Assembly (NCBI RefSeq): GCF_006175945.1
Contig: NZ_VAJL01000001.1
Coordinates: 3,233,001 to 3,297,000 of the forward strand
Length of the DNA stretch: 64,000 bases
Direction: 5' to 3'
DNA from: Chryseobacterium mulctrae
GTDB taxonomy: Bacteria; Bacteroidota; Bacteroidia; Flavobacteriales; Weeksellaceae
Shown piece by piece: positions 58,519 through 62,072 of the stretch. The notes under the pieces are model-generated. The model did not search any database, was not told the DNA's origin, and worked only from the letters and a program-made list of their open reading frames with translations. Position 1 is the first letter of the stretch; the number at the start of each line of letters is the position of its first letter. Both the position numbers and the translations under genes were made by a program.

Positions 58519-59430
58519 ATGAAGAAATATTTAAAACTCCTTCGGGTAGAACAATGGGTAAAAAATCTTTTTGTATTTGTTCCGCTTTTTTTCTCTGGTA
58601 ATGTTAAAAACTTAGATTTACTTAGTAAAAGTATTTTTGCATTCATCATATTTTCTCTGGCTGCAGGTGTTGTTTATATTCTTAATGATTATAACGATAT
58701 TGAAGCAGACCAAAAGCATCCCGAAAAAAGAAGACGTCCGCTTGCAAGCGGAGCTGTTTCAAAGAAAATGGCAATAAGCATTCTGATTGGTTTAATGATT
58801 GTGGATGTAGCTCTTATCTTATTCGCACAATTTTATTTTCATCGTCCAATTTGGAAATTTGCTTTCATTATCGCATTTTATTTTGTGATGAATCTTGCGT
58901 ATACATTCAAGTTGAAGCACGTTCCGATTATTGATATTTTTATCATTGCTATAGGTTTCGTTCTTCGTGTACAGGCAGGAGGTTATATTACGGGGATTTT
59001 TATTTCGCAGTGGGCGACTTTACTGACCTTTGTTTTGGCATTGGTTTTAGCAATAGGAAAACGCAGAGGAGAGCTTATTAATGCACAGATTTCAGGGAAG
59101 ACCAGAAAATCTTTAGATGGATATAATGTACAGTTTGCAGACATTGCACTATCTATTTCTGTGACTTTAGCAATAGTTTGTTATCTTATGTTTACACTTT
59201 CTCCTGAAGTGCAGCTCAAATCGCATTCCAGTATTTTTTATACCGTAATATTTGTTGTTTTTGCATTCTTAAGGTACTTGCAACAGACATTGGTTTATAA
59301 TCGTACAGAATCTCCAACAAAAATTTTATATCGGGATCGGTATATTCAGATTACTTTGGTTTTGTGGGTGATCTCGTTTTTAATATTGATTTATTTTAAG
59401 CACAGTATTATTAATTTTAATTTACTGTAA
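58519..59430 (+). CDS. UbiA-family polyprenyl-phosphate phosphoribosyltransferase (DPPR synthase-like)
   Basis: 303 residues, UbiA prenyltransferase fold with about nine TM helices. LLRVEQWVKNLFVFVPLFF at the start and NDYNDIEADQKHPEKRRRPLASG (NDxxDxxxDxxHPxKRxRP, about 67-89) match the decaprenyl-phosphate phosphoribosyltransferase group (Rv3806c-like), which joins PRPP to a polyprenyl phosphate. YNVQFADIALSISVTLAIVCYL is the second Asp-containing segment. It is followed after 2 bp by the DprE1-like gene, so it starts a polyprenyl-phosphoribose/arabinose pathway operon. The polyprenol is probably undecaprenol in this phylum. Confidence 0.9.
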   Translation: MKKYLKLLRVEQWVKNLFVFVPLFFSGNVKNLDLLSKSIFAFIIFSLAAGVVYILNDYNDIEADQKHPEKRRRPLASGAVSKKMAISILIGLMIVDVALILFAQFYFHRPIWKFAFIIAFYFVMNLAYTFKLKHVPIIDIFIIAIGFVLRVQAGGYITGIFISQWATLLTFVLALVLAIGKRRGELINAQISGKTRKSLDGYNVQFADIALSISVTLAIVCYLMFTLSPEVQLKSHSSIFYTVIFVVFAFLRYLQQTLVYNRTESPTKILYRDRYIQITLVLWVISFLILIYFKHSIINFNLL

Positions 59431-59432
59431 TT

Positions 59433-60749
59433 ATGAAGCCAAATTTTATACAAAAAGTTACAAACTGGGGTAATTTTCCTATTGTGGAAAAAGAAATGAA
59501 GTCGGAAGAAAGCTTCAGAAAGATTAAAGAATTCGTACAGAATCATAACGAGGTTATTGCAAGAGGAAACGGAAGGTGTTATGGTGATGCCTCATTGGGT
59601 GAAAGTATTTTTTCGACCAAAAAATTAAATAAATTCATCGGTTTTGATCGTTTAAACGGAATTATAGAATGTGAATCGGGTGTTTTGCTGTCTGATGTTT
59701 TAGAAATCTCAGTTCCGCAAGGATATTTTCTTTATGTAACGCCCGGAACAAAATTTATTTCCGTTGGTGGTGCCATTGCATCTGATGTTCATGGGAAAAA
59801 TCATCATTCTGAAGGTTGCTTTTCAGAATATGTGATCGATTTTAAATTAATGACAGAAAATGGCGATATTATTATCTGTTCAAAAGAAGAGAATTCTGAA
59901 AAATTCTATGCGACAATCGGCGGAATGGGACTTACCGGAATTATTCTTTCGGCTCGATTTAAGCTTAAAAATATAGAAACAGCCTACATTCGTCAGGAAA
60001 GTATTAAAGCTGAAAATTTAAACGAAATATTCAGATTGTTTGATGAAAGCGAAAGCTGGACTTACACTGTTGCCTGGATCGACTGTTTGCAAAAAGGAAA
60101 AGATATCGGAAGAAGTATTTTGATGAGAGGTGAACATGCTTTTGCGCACGAACTTCCTCAAAAATTTTCTAAAAATCCTTTACGATTAAAGAAAAAATTT
60201 TCTCCGACTGTACCGTTTTATTTTCCGGGATTTGTTTTGAATGCTCTTACTGTAAAGCTTTTTAATCTGTTATATTTTAAAAGACAGACCAAAAAAGAGG
60301 TGAAGAATTTTATCGATTACGAAACATATTTTTATCCGTTGGATGCGATTAATGATTGGAATAAGATTTACGGTAAATCAGGTTTTATTCAGTATCAAAT
60401 GGTGATTCCAAAAGAAAATGGAAAAGAAGGAATGAAAAAAATTCTTGAAACCATTGCCAACAGCGGAAACGGTTCTTTCCTTGCAGTATTAAAGTTATTC
60501 GGGAAAAATAACCCTGAAGCATATAATTCTTTTCCAATTGAGGGATATACTCTTGCATTAGATTTTAAGGTAAATTCTAAGCTGAAAAAACTGGTCGAAC
60601 AATTAGATCAGACCGTGCAGGAATTCGGAGGGAGAATTTATCTTACCAAAGACAGCATGAGTAAATCTTCGCTGACCGATTATCTTAAAAATGTAGAAAG
60701 CTCAAAATTTGTGTCTTTACAGCACAAAAGAATCTTAAATAATAAGTAA
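59433..60749 (+). CDS. dprE1: DprE1-like FAD-dependent oxidoreductase
   Basis: 438 residues with FAD-binding type 4: VIARGNGRCYGDASLGESIF (PP-loop), TPGTKFISVGGAIASDVHGKNHHSEGCFSEY (HGKNHH, the FAD-contact His region of DprE1) and FVSLQHKRILN at the end. In the substrate/inhibitor site the segment is GYTLALDF, where M. tuberculosis DprE1 has GWNICVDF; the Cys387 position is therefore Ala here. The catalytic Lys in YLTKDSMS matches Lys418. It would oxidise polyprenyl-phosphoribose at C2. It starts 2 bp after the UbiA gene and ends 2 bp before the reductase. Confidence 0.9.
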   Translation: MKPNFIQKVTNWGNFPIVEKEMKSEESFRKIKEFVQNHNEVIARGNGRCYGDASLGESIFSTKKLNKFIGFDRLNGIIECESGVLLSDVLEISVPQGYFLYVTPGTKFISVGGAIASDVHGKNHHSEGCFSEYVIDFKLMTENGDIIICSKEENSEKFYATIGGMGLTGIILSARFKLKNIETAYIRQESIKAENLNEIFRLFDESESWTYTVAWIDCLQKGKDIGRSILMRGEHAFAHELPQKFSKNPLRLKKKFSPTVPFYFPGFVLNALTVKLFNLLYFKRQTKKEVKNFIDYETYFYPLDAINDWNKIYGKSGFIQYQMVIPKENGKEGMKKILETIANSGNGSFLAVLKLFGKNNPEAYNSFPIEGYTLALDFKVNSKLKKLVEQLDQTVQEFGGRIYLTKDSMSKSSLTDYLKNVESSKFVSLQHKRILNNK

Positions 60750-60751
60750 AA

Positions 60752-61477
60752 ATGATAGTTCTCGGAAGTACATCTGAAGTAGCGCAGGCTTTTGTGGAAA
60801 AAGCTTTGCAGGAAGGCGAAAAATATGAAAGGATTTATCTTTTTACCTCAAACAAAGAAGCAACGGAGCGTTTTGCAAAACATATCGATGTGAAATTTTT
60901 GCAGCAATCTGAAATTATTGAGCTTGATTTAACGAAAGAAATTAATTATTTTGATTTCGATCATGTCAATTCTAATGTCTTATTCTGTGCGACCGGATAT
61001 TTGGGTGAAAGTACCGAAGATGGTTTGTACGATAATAAAAATACAGAACGGATTATTGATATTAATTACTCAAAACTGGTTCCTGTAATCAATTATTTTG
61101 CACAGAAATTTGAAAGCAGAAGATCTGGGACAATCATTGGTCTTTCGTCGGTTGCAGGTGATCGTGGAAGACAGAGTAATTTTATTTACGGAAGTGCAAA
61201 AGCGGCATTCACAGCCTATTTGAGTGGGCTTAGAAATTATCTTTTCGAAAAAAAGGTTCATGTTTTAACGGTAAAACCCGGTTTTATGGCAACAAAAATG
61301 ACCGAAGGTTTACCTTTAAATCCTAAATTAACGGCAACTCCGAAACAAGCGGCTGAATGTATTTACAAAGCTTTCAAAAAACAAAAGAATGTTGCATACG
61401 TTTTACCGATTTGGGGCGTTATTATGATGATCATCAGAAATATCCCTGAATTTATATTTAAAAAATTAAAGCTTTAA
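60752..61477 (+). CDS. dprE2: DprE2-like short-chain dehydrogenase
   Basis: 241 residues, SDR fold: MIVLGSTSEVAQAF nucleotide loop (short and atypical), catalytic Ser in GTIIGLSSVAGDRG and YGSAKAAFTAYLSGL (Tyr/Lys). The C-terminal region VIMMIIRNIPEFIFKKL matches the YVMMVLRHIPRSIFRKL tail of mycobacterial DprE2. It would reduce the 2-keto intermediate to polyprenyl-phosphoarabinose. It is cotranscribed with DprE1 and probably forms a functional pair with it. Confidence 0.88.
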   Translation: MIVLGSTSEVAQAFVEKALQEGEKYERIYLFTSNKEATERFAKHIDVKFLQQSEIIELDLTKEINYFDFDHVNSNVLFCATGYLGESTEDGLYDNKNTERIIDINYSKLVPVINYFAQKFESRRSGTIIGLSSVAGDRGRQSNFIYGSAKAAFTAYLSGLRNYLFEKKVHVLTVKPGFMATKMTEGLPLNPKLTATPKQAAECIYKAFKKQKNVAYVLPIWGVIMMIIRNIPEFIFKKLKL

Positions 61478-61484
61478 CTGTAGC

Positions 61485-62072
61485 ATGAAAAAATTGTATT
61501 GTTTTGATTTTGACGGAACTATTACCTATAAAGATACGATGTTTATGTATCTTAAATTTTATAATCCATCCAAGTTCCGGGTGCAGTTTTTGAAGCATAT
61601 TCCGCTTTTTATTTTATTAAAATTAAAATTGGCAGAGACTGAAAAAGTAAAGAAAAGCTTCATCGGTTCTGTTTTGAAGGGTCAGCTTCAATCTAAAATT
61701 GAGGAGAAATCGAAACAATTTTTTGAGGAAAATTATCCTAAAATCGTTAGAGAAAATGCTTTAGAATTTATTAAAAATATAGATAGAGAAAATACACAAA
61801 GTCTTATGGTGACAGCTTCTCTTGATATTTGGGCTAAACCTTTTGCAGAAAAACTACAGATGAATCTTGTTTCTACAAAGGCAGAGTTCAAAAATGGGAT
61901 TTTTACAGGCAATTTTATAGGCAAAAACTGCAACGGTTTAGAAAAATTAGAGCGTATAAAAAAAGAAATTTCAGACAGTAAGTACGATAAAATCATAGCG
62001 TTCGGAGATACTTCAGGAGATAAGCCTATGCTGAAATGGGCAAATGAGGGTCATTACCAATTTTTTCATTAA
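61485..62072 (+). CDS. HAD-superfamily (subclass IB) phosphatase
   Basis: 195 residues with HAD motif I FDFDGTITYKD (nucleophile Asp9 and Asp11), motif II MVTASLD, and motif IV IIAFGDTSGDKPMLKWA. Located 7 bp after dprE2. In mycobacteria a membrane PAP2-type protein (Rv3807c) is linked with dephosphorylation of decaprenyl-phosphoribose-5-phosphate; here a soluble HAD-IB protein stands in that position and is a good candidate for this step. This is inference from order and family. Confidence 0.87.
   Translation: MKKLYCFDFDGTITYKDTMFMYLKFYNPSKFRVQFLKHIPLFILLKLKLAETEKVKKSFIGSVLKGQLQSKIEEKSKQFFEENYPKIVRENALEFIKNIDRENTQSLMVTASLDIWAKPFAEKLQMNLVSTKAEFKNGIFTGNFIGKNCNGLEKLERIKKEISDSKYDKIIAFGDTSGDKPMLKWANEGHYQFFH

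Follow-up and report, generated by a model that had tools for sequence, protein, structure and literature searches.

The described systems that come closest to the one reported here are the mycobacterial decaprenylphosphoryl-arabinose pathway, with Rv3806c, Rv3807c, DprE1 and DprE2, and the three-component pentofuranose systems of the type found in Citrobacter youngae O1/O2. According to PMC11127046, pentofuranose donor pathways outside mycobacteria, their HAD phosphatases and the use of DprE1/E2 are already published, and DprE1/E2 homologues are reported for glycans containing arabinofuranose (Araf); the main text of that paper names no Bacteroid- or Flavobacter- taxon. Here we analyse a stretch of 64,000 nucleotides of Chryseobacterium mulctrae (Bacteroidota, Flavobacteriales, Weeksellaceae; assembly GCF_006175945.1, contig NZ_VAJL01000001.1, positions 3,233,001 to 3,297,000), the whole of which is called the window below, and in it an operon of four open reading frames (ORFs) on the + strand at 58519-62072, with intergenic gaps of 2, 2 and 7 bp. 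Judged by sequence comparison, the four genes are homologues, with conserved catalytic residues, of Rv3806c (UbiA-type polyprenyl-phosphate phosphoribosyltransferase, 58519..59430, 303 aa), of DprE1 (flavin adenine dinucleotide (FAD) oxidase, 59433..60749, 438 aa), of DprE2 (short-chain dehydrogenase/reductase (SDR), 60752..61477, 241 aa) and of a HAD-IB phosphatase (61485..62072, 195 aa). Genes related to these are required for the cell wall of tuberculosis bacteria. As in mycobacteria, the transferase, the oxidase and the reductase are thus homologous and their active sites conserved; where the mycobacterial pathway has Rv3807c, there is here a HAD phosphatase, to which Rv3807c is unrelated according to PMC11127046. 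Other differences are that the genes form one tight operon, that the organism is Gram-negative without known arabinogalactan, and that Ala stands at the position of Cys387 of the mycobacterial DprE1. With the systems of the Citrobacter youngae type, as that paper describes them, the genome shares the phosphoribosyltransferase with a HAD-family phosphatase and, as a candidate user of the donor, a GT-C transferase; unlike in these systems, the HAD protein is encoded by a separate, unfused gene, the flippase and the GT-C are not linked to the operon in this genome, and the locus is a conserved one of the family and not an O-antigen cluster.

We propose that the operon encodes the cytoplasmic part of a lipid-linked pentofuranose donor pathway whose product is used by a GT-C transferase, an explanation that, taken as a whole, we hold to be reasonably probable; its donor part, namely the first three steps below, is very probable. 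The most likely product is polyprenylphosphoryl-D-arabinofuranose. By homology and its conserved active site, the UbiA-type enzyme would transfer 5-phosphoribose from phosphoribosyl pyrophosphate (PRPP) to polyprenyl phosphate, and the HAD protein, as its fold and its place in the operon suggest, would then take off the 5-phosphate. DprE1 would oxidise the ribosyl C2 and DprE2 would reduce it with inversion, the two halves of a C2 epimerisation, to give polyprenylphosphoryl-beta-D-arabinofuranose, as homology and active sites indicate. The lipid would be turned over by a flippase presumably encoded elsewhere, and a GT-C encoded about 1.1 Mb away may finally move the arabinofuranose onto what is presumably a periplasmic or outer-membrane glycan, a role to which linkage, co-occurrence and fold point.

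The four proteins match Pfam UbiA (5e-20), FAD_binding_4 (7e-17), adh_short (2e-18) and HAD (8e-28), respectively. For the UbiA-type protein, the best NCBIfam models are those of decaprenyl-phosphate phosphoribosyltransferase (DPPRS), three of which score 168-220 bits (NF008977 with 220.5 bits at 3e-65, cut-off 234; NF008978 with 204.4 bits, cut-off 207), next to PRK08238 with 173 bits, which we take to be a HAD-UbiA model, a longer model of the UbiA family; other UbiA families score 58 bits or less. Against PDB sequences, all searched at E 0.001, it matches two chains only, both decaprenyl-phosphate phosphoribosyltransferases (8j8j, 9e-41). The oxidase matches the DprE1 model with 392.5 bits (3e-117, cut-off 500) and DprE1 first in PDB (4aut, 4e-79). 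For the SDR, PRK07102 comes first (245.5 bits, cut-off 267) and DprE2 second (146.3 bits, 1e-42, cut-off 250), and in PDB DprE2 is first (21gq_C, 2e-24) with the next match at 5e-9. The HAD protein is the only one of the operon above an NCBIfam cut-off (TIGR01490, 110.2 bits, cut-off 98.3) and has no match in PDB sequences; its predicted structure, with a predicted local distance difference test score of 93.8, matches HAD-IB and SerB-like folds, the best being 3fvv, a protein of unknown function, followed by phosphoserine phosphatases. The fold does not specify the substrate. As to a second DprE1 in the genome of the window, the sole other match covers 125 residues at 34%, and such a copy was rejected.

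Residue counts cover the window together with at most 120 loci; removal of rows with less than 70% query coverage or no match left 114 rows for the UbiA-type protein, 121 for DprE1, 114 for DprE2 and 99 for HAD. Across these loci the catalytic residues vary little or not at all. K15, Y53, N56, D57, D60, D64 and Y128 of the UbiA-type protein are kept in all rows, and the positions aligned to Lys28, Tyr70 and Tyr138 of Rv3806c, which PMC10994848 gives as PRPP-site residues, are conserved; the acidic motif NDxxDxxAD is our own reading. In the HGKNHH motif of DprE1, H, G and K are present in 121 of 121 rows, N in 120, H124 in 119 and H125 in 118, and the active-site Lys406 (Lys418 region) in all 121. 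Residue 375, corresponding to Cys387 of Mycobacterium tuberculosis DprE1, is Ala in the window; of the 121 rows, 118 carry Ala and the remaining 3 carry Thr. According to PMC6128881, Cys387 is the covalent benzothiazinone site and dispensable for activity, and the covalent site is therefore missing here. Ser133, Tyr146 and Lys150 of the SDR are kept in 114/114 rows, and DxD, Thr12 and GDxxxD of the HAD protein in 99/99. The tight packing of four genes described in the sequence-only reading is confirmed by these data, and its assignments as transferase, oxidase, SDR and HAD-IB phosphatase are supported by Pfam, NCBIfam, PDB and the residues. Two points it had left to be checked also came out in its favour, since HGKNHH and the active-site Lys appear in the aligned oxidase and the UbiA-type protein groups with the phosphoribosyltransferases, and the suggestion that the HAD enzyme could supply the 5-phosphate removal agrees with the predicted HAD-IB fold and motifs.

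The operon is also widely kept. For named loci, 80 of 98 confirmed DprE1 loci were kept and the junctions read with our own ORF caller; the closest among those kept are from Chryseobacterium at 98% and 97% identity, C. balustinum being among the latter. All three junctions are intact in 72 of the 80 named loci, in 12 of 20 family loci from other genera and in 2 of 20 loci from distant members of the phylum (among the 20, UbiA is next to DprE1 in 11 and DprE1 next to DprE2 in 14), some gaps being contig ends or missed ORFs. Given that the junctions are kept in so many named and other-genus loci, the gene order is not due to chance. Of the 20 other-genus loci, 12 retain the OmpA-like gene upstream and 13 retain IscS downstream, a pattern suggestive of inheritance at a fixed site, with some losses. 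Overall, DprE1 is matched at 1e-40 in 93 of 120 sampled genomes of the family, spread over 24 of 33 genera. Among 198 genomes sampled from Bacteroidota it is matched in 44 (23 of 102 genera), of which 3 are from Chryseobacterium, and in none of the 18 from another family of the same order. An extra ORF of 202 aa lies between DprE2 and HAD in two loci (L048, L158), and in four distant loci (L141, L144, L145, L150) a long ORF, presumably GH57-like when judged by eye, lies beside and upstream of UbiA. For the pathway, then, the donor route of the sequence-only reading stands on homology and residues; the locus is less surprising than that reading implied, given the precedents in PMC11127046 and the 44 Bacteroidota genomes.

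Distant relatives show other parts of the pathway. A divergent PAP2 protein lies between UbiA and DprE1 in L139 and L140, and this replacement fits the HAD protein being the phosphatase. A GtrA protein sits at the same place in L135, and in L138, L142 and L143 a Polysacc_synt_3/MatE flippase and polytopic proteins share a 20-kb stretch with the dpr genes; among these polytopic proteins, the PMT_2 cut-off is exceeded by one of L142 and narrowly missed by one of L138, and the tested ones of L143 have no Pfam match. Elsewhere in the genome of the window there are one GtrA match and two Polysacc_synt_3 matches. GtrA was rejected as a dedicated flippase, being absent from all 9 DprE1 genomes of g122 and all 3 of g129. 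Upstream of UbiA and DprE1, one distant relative of the phylum (L147:5015-7548) has a Wzx-like flippase and a gene for UDP-galactopyranose mutase (GLF, 6e-75), so that a single glycan there may contain both galactofuranose and arabinofuranose.

The candidate user of the donor comes from two related loci (L162, L167), where a GT-C of 502 aa follows the HAD gene. The genome of the window has a single homologue of the L162 protein, 495 aa long and 49% identical (G000:C1:4389369-4390853), and this is our candidate for the arabinofuranosyltransferase-type enzyme that was looked for elsewhere in the genome. Over the 120 family genomes, 60 have both GT-C and DprE1, 33 DprE1 only, 2 GT-C only and 25 neither (Fisher 9e-8, with ancestry not taken into account), and by genus the numbers are 19, 5, 2 and 7 (p 0.005). 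The two GT-C-only genomes are 79% and 80% complete. A profile of the family recovers the identical 62 genomes and, outside the family, only G128 with a weak match, which also has DprE1; against PDB sequences it gives only a chance match (E 0.74). Ten of the 60 genomes that have both, from three genera (one in g109, eight in g122, one in g129), carry GT-C no more than 1.5 kb from DprE1, and in one more of them, G292, the distance is 6 kb. The L162 protein matches the AftB model (NF041481) in its N-terminal part at E 0.012; its 13.6 bits, with a cut-off of 1050, are the best the family reaches; 6 of 14 members match the model weakly, and the own protein does not match it. G213 and G237 have, at the operon, a second GT-C type (L161-type) with the same N-terminal AftB motif. 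That type was rejected as a stand-in for GT-C in the 33 DprE1-only genomes, being present in 2 of 120 genomes and only in G237 among the 33, and used as a probe of the own genome it finds nothing at E 1. We consider the GT-C family a likely user of the arabinose lipid on the grounds of its fold, its co-occurrence with DprE1 and its linkage in relatives.

The surroundings of GT-C give hints on the acceptor. Of the 21 loci that were read, three from the own genus among them, 13 have a TMEM260-like homologue upstream of GT-C in the same orientation, in 12 cases at 126 bp or less. The own copy (L174:6293-9778, 1161 aa, PF11028 4e-68), a possible protein O-mannosyltransferase, lies 91 bp upstream of GT-C. 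A kdsA-type gene follows GT-C in 11 of 21 loci, the own copy being checked, and in L222 GT-C lies within an exopolysaccharide-like cluster, which L223 resembles by its gene starts. We infer that the lipid-linked pentose serves a surface glycan, with protein O-glycan, lipopolysaccharide and exopolysaccharide as candidate acceptors. As a speculative and rather doubtful idea, D-arabinofuranose in Weeksellaceae might sit on O-mannosylated periplasmic proteins, on which the TMEM260-like protein would start the glycan and the neighbouring family-specific GT-C, as representative of a new transferase family, would cap or elongate it with arabinose taken from the lipid of this operon. A 2025 review (PMC12871550) calls the O-glycan oligosaccharyltransferase and ligase of Bacteroidota undiscovered.

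Several results weigh against the pathway proposed here. The UbiA-type protein, the oxidase and the SDR all stay below their NCBIfam equivalog cut-offs, the best model of the SDR being unspecific, and the DprE1 cut-off is exceeded in none of the 198 and 120 genomes, whereas the control Corynebacterium glutamicum exceeds it. No flippase is found among the annotated operon neighbours in the window, and among the titles listed in our searches of open-licence papers we found none on D-Araf in Chryseobacterium. NCBIfam gives no match at E 1 for the own GT-C, whose fold matches include AftB together with other GT-C enzymes that fit as well or better; this GT-C is missing from 33 of 93 DprE1 genomes, and G277, of the same genus, has DprE1 and no GT-C, in contrast to the remaining 11 genomes sampled from that genus. 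GtrA likewise co-occurs with DprE1 (80 genomes with both, 13 DprE1 only, 10 GtrA only, 17 neither; p 1e-6), so that for GT-C linkage weighs more than the p value.

It is possible, though well short of likely, that the donor is made as proposed while GT-C draws on some other polyprenyl-phospho sugar, mannose for example, and a different transferase takes the arabinose lipid. The genomes without GT-C, the TMEM260-like gene upstream and a fold no closer to AftB than to mannosyltransferases and oligosaccharyltransferases would agree with this, against which stand the presence of DprE1 in 60 of 62 GT-C carriers, the closeness of the two genes in three genera and the second AftB-motif type at the operon. 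Another lipid-linked pentose, a ribofuranose or a modified pentose, would result if HAD does not act as the 5-phosphatase or if the substrate of the DprE pair is a different sugar lipid, as the unspecific HAD fold and the subthreshold scores of DprE1 and DprE2 might allow; we regard this as unlikely, given that oxidase and SDR stay ordered with the phosphoribosyltransferase in most related loci, that the catalytic residues are kept, that the best PDB match of each is the respective DprE, and that ribose needs no C2 oxidase-reductase pair. Databases name many orthologues of the first gene decaprenyl-phosphate phosphoribosyltransferase. Some sources name orthologues 4-hydroxybenzoate polyprenyltransferase, which would agree with the idea that the gene encodes an ordinary UbiA prenyltransferase for quinones or haem and that no single pathway joins the four genes. 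This we rejected as highly improbable, for the model scores, the sole PDB matches, the PRPP-site residues and the conserved operon all favour DPPRS.

The surprise in the lipid-linked arabinofuranose pathway proposed here is modest, because such pathways outside mycobacteria are in print, as PMC11127046 shows. What is likely new is that most of a bacterial family shares the trait and that a likely partner GT-C was identified; among the titles listed in our searches of open-licence papers we found neither this operon nor its occurrence across a Bacteroidota family together with the partner GT-C. The analysis predicts that D-arabinofuranose, usually tied to mycobacteria, would be a surface sugar of a large Gram-negative family, and its candidate user would be a GT-C family that NCBIfam and Pfam leave unnamed for the own protein and that often lies beside a TMEM260-like gene.

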